DNA of 64,000 nucleotides from positions 1,906,001-1,970,000 of the forward strand of contig NZ_CP093337.1 of assembly GCF_022637395.1 (NCBI RefSeq), given 5' to 3'. Within the stretch, counting starts at the first letter, position 1. Each line of letters starts with the position of its first letter. Under the pieces are notes generated by a model. It saw nothing but the letters and a program-made list of their open reading frames with translations, was not told the origin of the DNA and ran no database searches. This document shows, piece by piece, positions 35,219-62,249 of this stretch. This DNA comes from Shinella sp. H4-D48 (GTDB lineage Bacteria; Pseudomonadota; Alphaproteobacteria; Rhizobiales; Rhizobiaceae). The position numbers and the translations under genes were made by a program.

Positions 35219-35342
35219 GCCTAGTTATCCTTTTCCGGTTGAACCTCCGCGAGACGAACAGCCCTTCCTTCGGAAGCGCCACCGGTCGGAACAGTCCGGA
35301 TTTCTCCCGAACAATCCCATGTCTCACGTGTGGAATGGTTGC

Positions 35343-57257: not shown

Positions 57258-57342
<85 letters not shown>

Positions 57343-57477: not shown

Positions 57478-58068
57478 TCAATAGAGCGGTTCGTCATAGA
57501 CGGGCTCTCCTCGCAACAGCAGCCGCGCGATCTGCGGCGTACCATCGTGCGAAACCCGCGCCTCCACTTCCAGCTCCTCCGCGTTGCGGGCATTTTCCAG
57601 CGCCCTGCCCTCGCCTTCGGGCACATAGTAGCGTTCGAGACCGTATTGTACAAAGAGCGTATCGGGCATCTCGCCGGCGCCGTAGGTATTGAAAACGATG
57701 GGCAGCGTGCGCAGGATGACCGAGCCATCCTCAGGCGCCATGTCAGCAAAGCGCGCTTCCGTCGCATTCCATAGCCCACTGGCATCGGGTTTCAGGCGCA
57801 CGGAAAGCCGGGTGCGAGTGCCATCCGGCGCAATATCGCCCGTGACGATAGATTTCGAAATGGTGGAGATCGGATAGGACAGGATGACATAGTCGCCGCG
57901 CAGCAGGTCGCGCGGATCGACCGGGCTCGTTTTCAAGCGGATATCTGCACCGTTGCGCAGGATGGCAGCCCGGCTTTCGACCATGTAGCCGATCACGCCC
58001 GTCTGGAGCACGGCAACGATGATACCGGCAACCAACGGCGAAAGGCGGAAGGAACGGGACAGGGTCAT
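57478..58068 (-). CDS. GDYXXLXY domain membrane-anchored protein
   Basis: From ATG 58068 the protein is 196 residues with an N-terminal membrane anchor (SPLVAGIIVAVLQTGVIGYM, about 10-29) and an extracytoplasmic domain bearing the family signature GDYVILSY (about 58-65). No biochemical function is established. It is 1 bp downstream of the DUF2157 gene on the same strand, a pairing that recurs in bacteria (often with DUF4401, which is missing here). Confidence 0.88.
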   Translation of the reverse strand: MTLSRSFRLSPLVAGIIVAVLQTGVIGYMVESRAAILRNGADIRLKTSPVDPRDLLRGDYVILSYPISTISKSIVTGDIAPDGTRTRLSVRLKPDASGLWNATEARFADMAPEDGSVILRTLPIVFNTYGAGEMPDTLFVQYGLERYYVPEGEGRALENARNAEELEVEARVSHDGTPQIARLLLRGEPVYDEPLY

Positions 58069-58069
58069 G

Positions 58070-59173
58070 TCAGGCCTCCGCCTTGTCTTCGGTTGACGCA
58101 AGGCGACGCTCCAGCGCGATCACCGCCCAGGCGATGACGGCGACCACAAGTCCGGACACGAGGAAGAAGCCGGAAGTACCGATGATCGAGCCGATCGTCT
58201 CTGAAGCGAGATAGAGTGTTTCCACCGCAAAGGCCACGTATCCGAGGTAACGGACCGCACCGTTTTCCTTGCCGGAAAGCGCGATGCCTGCGATCGCTGC
58301 GCCGAGTGTAACGATGCCGACGGCCAGACGTTCGCCCTCCGCATCAAACTCGACATGCAGGACCACCAGGCTGAGCATCAGCACGAGATAGGCGTAGAAA
58401 GCGGGCGCCGCACCGGCGCTGCGGGCAATCGCGTGCAGTGGTGATGGCGGCAGAGCGGCGGTGAGATAGGCAACGGCGCCGAAGACGACGATGGCAATAG
58501 CCGTCGTAGCGGTGGAATATTCGCTATAGATAAAGGCGAGCCAGGCGACCAGCAGCAGATAGCCGAGATGGCGTGCGCGGCCGGCGTCGGTGTAGCGCGC
58601 GAGGGCTATGACGATCACGGCCATGAGCGGCATGAGCCAGAGCAGCAACATCTGGTCGGCGGAATAGGACTGCGTCCAGTCGGTTCCGGCCACGCCGAAG
58701 GCGAGAAAGCCGGCGACGACGGTCACGGCGCCCGAACGGAAAAGCACGGCGGCCACCACCGTACCGCCGAACCAAACCAGCGCTGCGTGGAGCGCATCAC
58801 CCGAGAGGTGATACATCTGCCCTACCAGTGCGATGGCGCCGCCGAAGGATAGCGAACCCAGCACGAGAAAAGCTGCTGCAAGACGCTCTGCACCGCGCGC
58901 CATAAGCGCAGCACCGCCGAGATAGGCTCCCCAGATGATGCCGAGGATGGCGGCCAGCCTTGCCAGCCGCGGGATGACGTCCCAGTTGGCCGCGAGAAGC
59001 AGGAGGACGGCTGCCGCGAAGAGAAGCGCCGCGACGACCATCAGCACACGACCGGCACTAAAAGAGCTCGGACGGGAATCGTACTCTTTCAAGAGCAACA
59101 TTGCCGTCTGCGTATCGATCAGGCCTTGCCCAGTCCACGCTTTCAGGTCGCGCTCCAACCAACTCCTGTACAT
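58070..59173 (-). CDS. DUF2157 domain polytopic membrane protein
   Basis: From ATG 59173, with RBS GAAAGGAACGGCAGGGA, the protein is 367 residues. A short cytoplasmic N-terminus (MYRSWLERDLKAWTGQGLID) is followed by about ten membrane segments starting VLMVVAALLFAAAVLLLLAA; this N-terminus and first helix pair are diagnostic of DUF2157. Function is unknown. The longer frame to 59290 has no RBS. The GDYXXLXY gene follows immediately. Confidence 0.88.
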   Translation of the reverse strand: MYRSWLERDLKAWTGQGLIDTQTAMLLLKEYDSRPSSFSAGRVLMVVAALLFAAAVLLLLAANWDVIPRLARLAAILGIIWGAYLGGAALMARGAERLAAAFLVLGSLSFGGAIALVGQMYHLSGDALHAALVWFGGTVVAAVLFRSGAVTVVAGFLAFGVAGTDWTQSYSADQMLLLWLMPLMAVIVIALARYTDAGRARHLGYLLLVAWLAFIYSEYSTATTAIAIVVFGAVAYLTAALPPSPLHAIARSAGAAPAFYAYLVLMLSLVVLHVEFDAEGERLAVGIVTLGAAIAGIALSGKENGAVRYLGYVAFAVETLYLASETIGSIIGTSGFFLVSGLVVAVIAWAVIALERRLASTEDKAEA

Positions 59174-59599
59174 TCCCTGCCGTTCCTTTCGACAATCAGC
59201 CCGCGCGGCCGTGATTCCCGCCCTGTCAATCGCAGCACTATAGGCTGCGCAAAAATGTCCGGTCACGGCAAAAGTAAACAAATCCATCAAAGCGACCGCG
59301 AAACTGCAGAAATCCTTTCGAACTGGCGCGCAAGATTAACGAAACATAAAGAAAACCATGGCAGATTTGGCCTTAAGGCGACGACTTAGCCCGGTTTTTT
59401 TGCCATGCAGATAGTGCATATCATCCATGATCATATTGCACTGCACAAAACCGAATGAGGCGGTTATATTGCAAACATCGGATCGGTATTGATCCGGGCC
59501 GCAACCGAGGCGCCACAGCAGGCGACAGGCGCGGAAAGGCCAGATGATCAGGCCCGGCATGATGCCGAAAGATCAGGTTGCCGGAAACGGCGATCGATG
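59174..59599. other. Non-coding region upstream of the sRNA
   Basis: About 425 bp before the sRNA body with no credible protein gene. The left part must hold the promoter of the minus-strand DUF2157 gene. A candidate promoter for the sRNA is at 59436-59469; GTGCATAT...ATATTGCAC forms an imperfect inverted repeat around 59414-59441. Confidence 0.5.
59436..59469 (+). promoter_or_regulatory. Candidate promoter with shared TTGCACTGCACA element
   Basis: TTGCACTGCACA, then TTATAT 17 nt after CTGCAC. The same 12-mer at the same spacing from GTATAT occurs before the second DUF1127 gene. It would start transcription about 125 nt upstream of the sRNA hairpins. Confidence 0.45.
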
Positions 59600-59728
59600 G
59601 AATTCGAAGTGGCGCACTCCTCCTCCCAGCGCCCCTTCGATCGATTGGCAACACTCCTCCTCCCAGTTGCCAATCAATATCAATGACGCCCGCTGGATCT
59701 CCTCCCCCAGCGGGCGTTATTATTTTAC
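59600..59728 (+). ncRNA. Probable anti-Shine-Dalgarno small RNA, alpha-r14/NfeR1 type
   Basis: Three consecutive hairpins. Hairpin 1 (59604-59640): TCGAAG-T-GGCGC pairs GCGCC-C-CTTCGA around loop ACTCCTCCTCCCA. Hairpin 2 (59644-59674): ATTGGCAAC pairs GTTGCCAAT around the identical 13-nt loop. Hairpin 3 (59686-59717): ACGCCCGCTGG pairs CCAGCGGGCGT around ATCTCCTCCC, followed by TATTATTTT, so it is also an intrinsic terminator. Each loop is complementary to GGAGG ribosome binding sites. This matches the description of the rhizobial alpha-r14 family (S. meliloti NfeR1) with repeated CCUCCUCCC motifs. The 5' end is not determined; the nearest recognisable promoter is about 130 nt upstream, so processing or an unseen promoter is possible. 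Confidence 0.82.
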
Positions 59729-60048
59729 CCCCCCCCTTTTGATACGTCAGACACCCAGATCGTGTGGCTTCCCAGCAGGCCCGCACCTGCGCGTCACCGA
59801 CGCATGCATCGCCCTTTCGGTTGAGGCGAACTCCTACCGGATTCGCATAGCGAGTGTTTACCAGTGTGGCGATAGGGCCTTTTTTGGCCAGAATTTTGTC
59901 AAAATTTCCACTTGACATGCAATAATCGCATGGGTGCTGTGTCAATCGAGCGCTGTTCATTTCGCCGCCGCCGCGTATAGTCCGGCTCAACAGATCAGGG
60001 CGGCGCCAACGACGAGCGGCCGCTCAGTACGAAGCCCAAGAAAGGGGT
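59729..60048. other. Region between the sRNA and the first DUF1127 gene
   Basis: About 320 bp. It opens with a run of nine C followed by TTTT (59728-59740). No gene is supported. Possible promoters for the DUF1127 gene: CTTGACA at 59911-59917 without a clear -10, and CTGTTC, 17 nt, TATAGT (59953-59981). Confidence 0.5.
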
Positions 60049-60198
60049 ATGAAAATGAACCTGGCACGCTCTTTCAACAACTGGCGCAAGTATCGTCAGA
60101 CCGTCAACGAACTCGGCCGCATGTCCGACCGCGAACTTCGTGACCTCGGCATCGGCCGCAGCGATATCCCCTATATCGCACGCAAGGCTTCGATCTAA
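60049..60198 (+). CDS. DUF1127 small arginine-rich protein (first copy)
   Basis: A 49-residue protein starting MKMNLARSFNNWRKYRQTVN and ending SDIPYIARKASI. It has the DUF1127 core: WRKYRQTVNELGRMSDRELR followed by DLGIGRSDI. RBS AAAGGGG precedes ATG 60049; ATG 60055 is a second possible start. Such proteins are short, basic and often stress-induced; in Rhodobacter a DUF1127 protein (CcaF1) binds RNA and is encoded with CcsR small RNAs. A terminator follows 30 bp after the stop. Confidence 0.93.
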   Translation: MKMNLARSFNNWRKYRQTVNELGRMSDRELRDLGIGRSDIPYIARKASI

Positions 60199-60227
60199 GC
60201 CGAGCGGACCCATCGGGTCGCAAATTG

Positions 60228-60262
60228 AACGCCCTTCGGCTCTCGCCGGAGGGCGTTTTTGT
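60228..60262 (+). terminator. Terminator of the first DUF1127 gene
   Basis: AACGCCCTTCGGC, loop TCTC, GCCGGAGGGCGTT, then TTTG; 13-bp stem with one G-U pair. Confidence 0.88.
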
Positions 60263-60538
60263 TTGTCCGTCTTTTTGCGTCGCACAATGTCGCAAATCAT
60301 AGGCTACGACATGGCGCGCATAGCCCACGAGCGCAGTCACATCGTGGTATCTGCCTGATATGGCGCCGTTATCTGCCTCTTCCGCATGCAACAGCGGCAA
60401 CTGCCCTATCCTTCATCGTCTTATTGCACAAATGCATAGCAGCTGCATTTTCTTTGCACTGCACATTAACAGGGATGTCGCGTATATGAACGCCAACGCC
60501 GGGGGAAAGCCTCCGGACAACCCGTCAAGGACACGACC
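60263..60538. other. Region between the two DUF1127 genes
   Basis: About 275 bp after the terminator without a gene. It contains several TGCA-rich palindromic words (TGCATAGCAGCTGCA around 60434-60447) and a promoter match at 60454-60487. Confidence 0.5.
60454..60487 (+). promoter_or_regulatory. Candidate promoter of the second DUF1127 gene
   Basis: TTGCACTGCACA, then GTATAT 17 nt after CTGCAC; expected start near 60494, giving a leader of about 45 nt before the ATG at 60539. Same element and spacing as at 59436-59469. Confidence 0.55.
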
Positions 60539-60682
60539 ATGAACCCGATCCGCATCGCAAAGAACTGGATTTCCTACCGCCGCACCCTGAACGAACTCGG
60601 CAACCTGTCGAACCACACGCTCTCGGACATCGGCCTGACCCGTTACGACATTCGTGACATCGCTTCCCGTTCCTTCCGCTAA
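60539..60682 (+). CDS. DUF1127 small arginine-rich protein (second copy)
   Basis: A 47-residue protein, MNPIRIAKNWISYRRTLNEL then GNLSNHTLSDIGLTRYDIRD and IASRSFR. It matches the first copy in architecture (W-x2-YRxTxNELG then LxDxGxxRxDI) but is diverged, so the two are old paralogues. RBS CAAGGACACGACC. A perfect 10-bp terminator follows 56 bp after the stop. Confidence 0.93.
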   Translation: MNPIRIAKNWISYRRTLNELGNLSNHTLSDIGLTRYDIRDIASRSFR

Positions 60683-60738
60683 TTCATAGCCGGTTTCCAC
60701 CGCTGCGGCCGGAAACGGCGACGCGCGGAGAACGCTTC

Positions 60739-60764
60739 AAACGGCACCACAGGGTGCCGTTTTT
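60739..60764 (+). terminator. Terminator of the second DUF1127 gene
   Basis: AAACGGCACC, loop ACAG, GGTGCCGTTT, then TT; it lies upstream of trmFO. Confidence 0.88.
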
Positions 60765-60839
60765 GATTCCGGGGGCATGATGCCTCATTTCCATGCTTTT
60801 CCTTGGAATTGCGCCGTCGCCCATGGTAACGAACCGGCC

Positions 60840-62249
60840 ATGACCAAGACCTCTTCCCACACTCCCATCCATGTCATCGGTGGCGGCCTTGCTGGCTCGG
60901 AAGCCGCCTGGCAGATTGCCGAAAGCGGCATCCCCGTCATCCTGCATGAAATGCGCGGCGTTCGCGGCACGGATGCGCACAAGACCGACGGCCTGGCGGA
61001 ACTCGTCTGTTCGAACTCCTTCCGCTCGGATGACGCGACGAGCAATGCCGTCGGCGTGCTGCATGCGGAAATGCGGCTGGCCGGTTCGCTCATCATGCGC
61101 TCGGCTGATGCCAATCAGGTCCCGGCCGGCGGTGCGCTGGCGGTCGATCGCGACGGCTTCTCCAACGCCGTGACGGCTGCACTCGAAAGCCACCCGCTCA
61201 TCACCATCACACGCGAGGAAGTGACAGGGCTTCCGCCCGAGGAATGGGATCAGGCCATTATCGCGACCGGCCCGCTCACTGCCCCTTCGCTGGCCGAAGC
61301 CATCCAGGCGCGGACCGGTGCCGATTCGCTCGCCTTCTTCGACGCCATCGCGCCGATCGTGCATACGGCGAGCATCGACATGGATATCTGCTGGTATCAG
61401 TCGCGCTATGACAAGGTCGGACCCGGCGGCACGGGCAAGGACTATATCAACTGCCCGATGGATGAGGCGCAGTACAACGCGTTCATCGACGCTCTGATCG
61501 CCGGCGACACGACCGGCTTCAAGGAATGGGAGGGCACACCTTATTTCGACGGGTGCCTGCCGATCGAGGTGATGGCGGAACGTGGCCGTGAGACGCTACG
61601 CCACGGCCCGATGAAGCCGATGGGGCTGACCAATGCGCATAACCCGACGGTAAAACCTTATGCGGTCGTTCAGCTGCGCCAGGATAATGCGCTTGGCACG
61701 CTCTACAACATGGTCGGTTTCCAGACGAAGCTGAAATATGGTGCGCAGGCGGAAATCTTCCGGCTGATCCCGGGCCTCGAGAACGCGGAATTTGCGCGCC
61801 TCGGCGGGCTGCACCGCAATACCTATATCAACTCCCCCACGCTGCTCGACCGGTCGCTGACGCTGAAGGGCCGTCCGGGGCTTCGCTTTGCCGGCCAGAT
61901 CACCGGCTGCGAGGGTTATGTGGAAAGCGCGAGCATCGGGCTGCTTGCCGGCCGCTTCGCCGCCGCCGAGCGCCAAGGCCACGCTCCTGCCCTTCCGCCG
62001 GAAACCACGGCCTTCGGCGCGCTGCTTAACCACATCACCGGCGGGCATATCGTGTCGGATGATGAGCCGGGCAAACGTTCCTTCCAGCCCATGAACATCA
62101 ATTTCGGCCTGTTCCCGCCGCTGGAGCCGGGAACGGTGACAAAGCCCGAGGCCATGAAGCGTTTCCGTGGCAAGGACAAGGCAATCGCCAAGAAGCATGC
62201 GACCGCCGCACGCGCGCTGGACGATTGCGCCCGCTGGCTGAAAGGCTGA
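60840..62249 (+). CDS. trmFO: Methylenetetrahydrofolate--tRNA-(uracil-5-)-methyltransferase TrmFO
   Basis: TrmFO makes ribothymidine-54 in the tRNA T loop using methylene-THF and FADH2. The likely start is ATG 60840 ([20 protein letters not shown], 469 residues; family 430-480); ATG 60777 is an in-frame alternative with 21 extra residues that are not family-like. Motifs: FAD-binding [17 protein letters not shown] (about 13-29), [37 protein letters not shown] (a conserved Cys) and [18 protein letters not shown] near the C-terminus (GCEGYxES). Confidence 0.95.

Follow-up and report, generated by a model that had tools for sequence, protein, structure and literature searches.

In Sinorhizobium meliloti, the small RNA alpha-r14 (ar14, also NfeR1 or Smr14C2; Rfam family RF02344) represses translation via anti-Shine-Dalgarno (anti-SD) loops (PMC7143759), with transport mRNAs repressed through three redundant loops (PMC7143759, PMC8844928), and its promoter is bound and activated by LsrB (PMC10746234). 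In Agrobacterium and Brucella, the LysR-type regulator VtlR activates abcR, encoded beside vtlR, and a set of small-protein genes (PMC7486931) that are named as DUF1127 in Brucella (PMC12595884). In Rhodobacter sphaeroides, the DUF1127 gene ccaF1 and the cuckoo RNAs CcsR1-4 downstream of it stand under an RpoHI/RpoHII promoter, and the CcaF1 protein is reported to bind RNA and to take part in CcsR maturation (PMC10253847). Such pairing of anti-SD RNAs with DUF1127 genes has been described as the 'CIN1 locus' (PMC10253847), so the pairing of ar14 with DUF1127 is itself already known. In Agrobacterium tumefaciens, short DUF1127 proteins (SDPs) bind PhoR or act through it, a mutant is rescued by DUF1127 proteins of S. 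meliloti, R. sphaeroides and E. coli, and no RNA binding was found for Salmonella YjiS (PMC12501420). A leader attenuator has been reported for another DUF1127 gene (PMC12218461). Among the papers listed from a collection that lacks most subscription titles, no title or abstract was seen that joins ar14/NfeR1, DUF1127 and LsrB/VtlR, or that reports loss of the Shine-Dalgarno (SD).

The locus considered here lies in a 64-kb stretch of contig 1 of Shinella sp. H4-D48 (the window, meaning the whole stretch analysed; the genome is 4.77 Mb in three contigs). On the + strand an ar14 sRNA is followed by two short DUF1127 genes, D1 and D2, and then by trmFO (Table 1). An anti-SD hairpin RNA thus adjoins a short DUF1127 gene, as it does across genera in what has been defined as a CIN1-type locus (PMC10253847). 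The earlier note on this DNA had described a CTCCTCC sRNA with two DUF1127 genes behind it on the same strand, and family models bear this out: the sRNA scores 118.7 bits against RF02344 (cut-off 58.8, E 2.2e-21) and covers the covariance model in full (positions 1-123 of 123), and D1 and D2 score 64.9 bits (E 5.3e-18) and 54.3 bits (E 1.1e-14) against the Pfam DUF1127 model (cut-off 23.3).

Table 1. Features of the ar14/DUF1127 locus, with positions counted from the first letter of the window
Feature	Position	Strand	Basis or parts
Predicted sRNA promoter	59415..59470	+	TGCATATCATCCATG, TTGCACTGCACA, -10
Predicted 5' leader, ~120 nt, ahead of ar14 unit	59477..59598	+	fold; inferred start
ar14 (NfeR1/cuckoo-type) sRNA, RF02344	59599..59722	+	covariance model match, fold
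Predicted D1 promoter	59928..59981	+	GCATGGGTGCTGT 59928-59940; -10-like TATAGT 59976-59981
D1, DUF1127 protein, 49 aa from first Met / 47 aa from second	60049..60198	+	PF06568
D1 terminator-like hairpin	60227..60258	+	
Predicted D2 promoter	60423..60488	+	consensus box, GCATAGCAGCTGC, TTGCACTGCACA, -10-like
D2, second DUF1127 protein, 47 aa, separate lineage	60539..60682	+	PF06568
D2 terminator-like hairpin	60739..60762	+	
trmFO, neighbour, outside module	60840..62249	+	context

The sRNA folds into three hairpins with an anti-SD motif unpaired in every loop (-59.2 kcal/mol, z -10.1; none of 200 shuffles as stable), and it shares with NfeR1 the full-length match above the cut-off, the three anti-SD hairpins and a promoter-like sequence with TGCA-rich boxes. 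Its CUCCUCC loops are formed by three copies of CTCCTCCC on the + strand, at 59620, 59657 and 59699; one further copy lies elsewhere in the window, where the count of this 8-mer by itself is not above chance (4 against 2.38 expected, with 22 of 100 shuffles reaching 4). The earlier note had suggested three motifs fused in one RNA, a reading that is not supported, the three-motif RNA being the normal form of ar14. The locus differs from that of NfeR1 in an inexact promoter box, in the two DUF1127 genes directly downstream and in the predicted 120-nt leader, NfeR1 being given as 115 nt (PMC8844928). The leader is predicted to be structured, and in other ar14-first loci the promoter-like box also lies well upstream. 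No relic of a DUF1127 gene was seen among 76 sRNA leaders (best E 1.4). A second ar14 above the cut-off in the Shinella genome (104.9 bits) lies behind a third short DUF1127 gene, so that both such copies adjoin DUF1127. Three weaker ar14-like matches below the cut-off (C1:1864930-1865042, C2:164326-164449 and C1:1365765-1365872, with 41.5, 33.8 and 31.5 bits) are not beside any DUF1127 gene of this genome. Five other Shinella loci among those listed (L214-L218) carry two tandem ar14 copies each where the window has one. Elsewhere in the window, a match to the rpsB sRNA family (RF01815) was recorded at 35222-35332 on the - strand (45.9 bits, cut-off 40).

The sequences between the genes suggest how they may be expressed. 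Ahead of the sRNA, TGCATATCATCCATG (59415-59429) is followed by TTGCACTGCACA (59436-59447), which overlaps a -35-like TGCACA (59442-59447), and then by a 17-base spacer and a -10 TATATT (59465-59470), giving a predicted start near 59477. This promoter does not exactly match the LsrB/VtlR consensus in print, GCAT-N3-TG-N3-T (PMC8844928, PMC7486931), and has 6 mismatches in 15 to the Brucella VtlR box (PMC12595884). GCATGGGTGCTGT, in the D1 promoter, is an exact consensus match on the + strand. The D2 promoter carries one on the - strand (60423-60435), followed by GCATAGCAGCTGC (60434-60446), TTGCACTGCACA (60454-60465), a 17-base spacer and a -10-like TATATG (60483-60488), and it has the same geometry as the sRNA promoter. 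A single consensus match means little, with 13 occurrences in the 64-kb window. A composite pattern (GCAT-N16-TTGCACTGCACA-N17-TATA, up to 3 mismatches) occurs twice in the 4.77-Mb genome, once ahead of the sRNA and once ahead of D2, and its reversed control not at all; having been read off these same two sites, it shows their rarity and is not an independent discovery. The two promoters agree, ungapped, at 35 of 67 positions, a value reached by none of 20000 shuffles, although one chance place in the window scores 34 and the identity by itself therefore proves little; the D1 promoter compared in the same way is not above chance against either of them. Counted from the predicted starts, the GCAT boxes sit at about -61 to -49, which is the position of the AbcR1 box (PMC8844928). 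A terminator-like hairpin stands behind each DUF1127 gene, in agreement with the earlier note, which gave each its own terminator, and the third ar14 hairpin with its T-rich tail (59682-59721) is also terminator-like; a consensus scan of the + strand flags only that of D1 among the three. Promoter-like and terminator-like sequences in the intergenic stretches argue against one shared transcript in the window, and the sRNA, D1 and D2 appear to be separate units, three in all.

D1 and D2 are identical at 21 of 47 residues. D2 is 100% identical to the D2 of Shinella zoogloeoides, S. fusca and Rhizobium alarense, and in a DUF1127 tree (112 rows, 47 columns) all 21 D2 rows form a clade that includes a single other row (support 99/83), while D1 is intermixed, in a weakly supported arrangement, with the DUF1127 genes found at other ar14 loci. 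A local duplication of one protein gene, as proposed in the earlier note, is therefore unlikely, on an alignment of only 47 columns. In length and arginine richness the two proteins resemble the A. tumefaciens SDPs, which are of 47-48 aa (PMC12501420).

The association of ar14 with DUF1127 is real, far above chance and common in relatives. RF02344 was searched in 101 Rhizobiaceae genomes, almost one per genus, with a match in 97 and a match above the cut-off in 91. The sample for linkage comprised at least 150 ar14 hits from 72 genomes in 124 clusters, of which 120 clusters (145 hits, 69 genomes) were scanned; the DUF1127 profile used for this was derived from D1 and D2 and one iteration. Among these listed matches a DUF1127 gene lies within 1 kb of 100 of the 145 ar14 hits, where each genome's DUF1127 density would lead one to expect 0.34 (within 500 bases, 92; within 3 kb, 102), and all 100 linked pairs are on the same strand. 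The earlier note had proposed such a comparison across genomes and looked to sister genera for the linkage, and a linked pair is present in 62 of the 69 genomes among the matches listed. The remaining 45 listed hits have no DUF1127 gene within 1 kb. Seen from the proteins, at least 113 of 334 DUF1127 genes in the sampled genomes have a listed ar14 no more than 1.5 kb away. In 20 further picked DUF1127 loci, a TCCTCC pair follows directly behind the gene in seven and stands in front in one, and in 12 more, inspected by eye, two or more TCCTCC lie closely behind on the gene's strand in nine (G034 among them was already in the set), so the counts of linkage are a lower bound; the small genomes G006 (1.1 Mb) and G091 (1.5 Mb) have no TCCTCC behind their DUF1127 gene. 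As a control, the suhB/AbcR family has a DUF1127 gene within 1.5 kb at none of 35 loci (the 30 best of the family and five of the Shinella genome). Four genomes without ar14 are also without DUF1127 (three of 1.2-2.0 Mb and one fragmentary), for which genome reduction may be the cause; one genome (G044) has ar14 and no DUF1127. In a sample of the same class outside Rhizobiaceae, RF02344 matches were found in 14 of 288 genomes, none above the cut-off of 58.8 bits. The best of these belong to two genomes of one family, G122 (56.9 and 52.9 bits) and G352 (56.1 and 46.8 bits), the only ones with DUF1127 within 1.5 kb (the other 12 have none); they lie directly behind a DUF1127 gene, with eight CTCCTCC motifs in G122 and six in G352, in arrays much like the described ccaF1-CcsR1-4.

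The two genes occur in both orders. The ccaF1-CcsR order, with the RNA downstream of DUF1127, is not that of the window, but it is found in 74 of the 100 linked hits elsewhere, against 26 with ar14 first, among the matches listed. In 41 of the 74 the ar14 starts 7-24 nt past the end of the DUF1127 domain, that is, at the 3' end of the message, and some loci have two or three tandem ar14 units behind one DUF1127 gene; at one (L354, genome G037) nine TCCTCC stand in a row, as if from three tandem units. The order seen in the window, ar14 followed by two or more DUF1127 genes, occurs in 21 genomes of the sampled set. Three genomes (G013, G046 and G085) have this order with an additional DUF1127 gene in front, a doubtful match in G085, and this layout is a bridge between the two orders.

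Among the best 80 of at least 367 confirmed relatives of the D2 locus in named genomes, D1 stands beside D2 in 79, trmFO is present in 70, and ar14 is present in 59 (58 by motif and one, L240, by Rfam). An Rfam scan gave no ar14 at the other 21 of these 80, which include all 13 named Agrobacterium loci; Agrobacterium loci carry D2 and, nearly all, D1. D1 is kept in 20 of the 21, and in 20 a tRNA lies about 0.3-1.1 kb before D1, so that the RNA was probably lost there and the protein genes kept. The window has a tRNA at 57261-57342, and a pair of membrane protein genes (GDYXXLXY and DUF2157, 57478-59290, - strand) stands beside the sRNA on the opposite strand; the short distance from tRNA to D1 in loci without ar14 suggests that the pair is missing there.

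Upstream boxes were compared with two published motifs that are independent of these data. The consensus GCAT-N3-TG-N3-T, on either strand within 230 nt upstream, occurs ahead of 23 of 44 unlinked ar14 copies, 34 of 58 DUF1127 genes that precede ar14, 14 of 23 D1 and 7 of 21 D2 genes, against 31 of 560 long-ORF controls. The Brucella VtlR 15-mer, with up to 3 mismatches, gives 27 of 44, 38 of 58, 5 of 23 and 2 of 21, against 28 of 560. Unlinked ar14, DUF1127-before-ar14 and D1 promoters are therefore enriched in both tests and D2 in the consensus test only; ar14-first promoters, the class of the window sRNA (n=18), show clear enrichment in neither (3 of 18, p 0.08; 2 of 18, p 0.2), and all these p-values are too good, as orthologous promoters are not independent. 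TTGCNNTGCA is found ahead of 16 of 18 ar14-first units and 12 of 21 D2 genes (control 37 of 560), GCAT[AG]GCAG occurs in 78 of the best 80 of at least 367 named D2 loci, and TGCA-rich dyads are visible by eye upstream of all gene classes of the module. A 302-aa LysR-family gene adjoins tandem suhB-family RNAs elsewhere in the Shinella genome; its protein matches many LysR models, none above the curated cut-off among the 25 matches listed, and the consensus was seen by eye upstream of two (L207 and L209) of the four suhB-family RNAs above the cut-off.

The promoters suggest that the RNA and the proteins stand under one stress regulator. The likeness to the VtlR/LsrB regulon (abcR, atu1667, BAB1_0914, BAB2_0512 and BAB2_0574) would be LysR-type activation of an anti-SD sRNA together with small DUF1127-type genes, although its sRNA is AbcR, encoded next to vtlR (PMC7486931), whereas here ar14 lies next to the DUF1127 genes themselves. 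We consider it probable that the locus is a CIN1-type module of three same-strand units, ar14, D1 and D2, under one LysR-type regulator (LsrB/VtlR), with the RNA and the proteins acting in parallel. LsrB/VtlR, likely the LysR-family gene beside the AbcR-type RNAs, would bind and switch on all three units when active under stress or nutrient change. Transcribed from a promoter of its own, the ar14 RNA would then pair with ribosome sites through three redundant CUCCUCC loops and block the translation of many mRNAs, chiefly those of transport genes. The small basic proteins D1 and D2 would be made simultaneously and may, in parallel with the RNA, influence signalling or RNA turnover. The functions proposed here are extrapolated from Sinorhizobium for NfeR1, from Agrobacterium and Brucella for VtlR, and, for the DUF1127 proteins, from Agrobacterium (PhoR) and Rhodobacter (CcaF1). 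The simplest reading is a single regulator with outputs of two kinds.

A closer relation between the partners, in which the DUF1127 protein or proteins bind ar14 and help RNase E to trim or stabilise it, would follow the example of CcaF1 (PMC10253847). The 7-24 nt between domain and RNA in the 41 DUF1127-first hits leave no room for an ar14 promoter, so that the RNA would need to be cut from the DUF1127 message; the tandem ar14 units behind one DUF1127 gene point in the same direction, and the predicted leader of the window sRNA would also require trimming. However, the window sRNA carries its own promoter-like and terminator-like sequences, D2 stands without ar14 in 21 of the best 80 of at least 367 named loci, and 45 of the 145 listed ar14 hits lack a DUF1127 gene within 1 kb. 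The PhoR route in Agrobacterium, the rescue across species and the finding of no RNA binding for Salmonella YjiS also argue against it (PMC12501420), and we regard such a partnership as rather unlikely; the best case for it is at loci whose RNA would be released from a DUF1127 message. The earlier note had suggested that the locus may be the rhizobial counterpart of CcaF1/CcsR, and this holds in part. An anti-SD hairpin RNA adjoining a short same-strand DUF1127 gene, the conserved linkage and the CcsR-like arrays of G122 and G352 agree with it. In the window, however, the RNA comes first and holds all three hairpins, what look like three units each have promoter- and terminator-like sequences, and the boxes are of LysR type where ccaF1 has an RpoHI/RpoHII promoter. 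Shared control is better supported as the link than binding or maturation of the RNA by the proteins. That the RNA and the proteins merely share an old neighbourhood and are functionally unconnected, as D1 and D2 staying adjacent in 79 of the best 80 of at least 367 named loci with or without ar14 might suggest, is very improbable given that both orders recur (74 and 26 among the matches listed), that the linkage exists at two places of the Shinella genome, and that the linked pairs share a strand in all 100 cases and share promoter boxes.

The loci in which the RNA follows tightly on the protein gene show a further difference. An SD-like tetramer is present in 17 of 47 leaders of DUF1127 genes with hairpins tightly behind them (gap of at most 100; set L041-L160), against 51 of 55 leaders of D1, D2 and loosely linked genes (Fisher 8e-10). 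Within the 19 genomes that have both kinds in these data, the counts are 8 of 22 for hairpin-fused and 19 of 29 for other copies; some of the latter stand ahead of a second DUF1127 gene on the same strand, with which they may be co-transcribed. In 14 of these 19 genomes the hairpin-fused copy pairs less strongly with the anti-SD loop (Wilcoxon p 0.011). A narrower test of nine pairs within genomes, without the eligible G016, gave p 0.004, and the fuller test is the weaker one. In a small set (L323-L342), 4 of 7 genes with hairpins and 10 of 13 without have an SD-like sequence, which is little difference, and compared with long ORFs, whose starts are uncertain, the SD of hairpin-fused genes is no weaker (p 0.35). 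Phylogeny is uncontrolled, so that the tendency of hairpin-fused DUF1127 genes to be without SD is a lead. It is conceivable, and we put it forward with more doubt than conviction, that ar14 and DUF1127 are two outputs of one LysR switch that spread as a unit through Rhizobiaceae, and that the RNA-fused DUF1127 gene dropped its SD and is thereby kept from being silenced by the anti-SD loops of its own message. If true, this would amount to a built-in immunity: synthesis of the protein could continue in the cell while SD-led messages are shut down by the RNA. DUF1127 messages that are poor in SD and fused to anti-SD hairpins would then be expected to escape repression by that RNA.

Whether DUF1127 is an RNA-binding or a protein-binding domain is treated as an open question in print (PMC12501420). 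The locus joins three stories that have been studied separately, those of the NfeR1-type sRNAs, of regulation by VtlR/LsrB and of the DUF1127 proteins. Under shared control, deletion of one regulator should silence all three genes.
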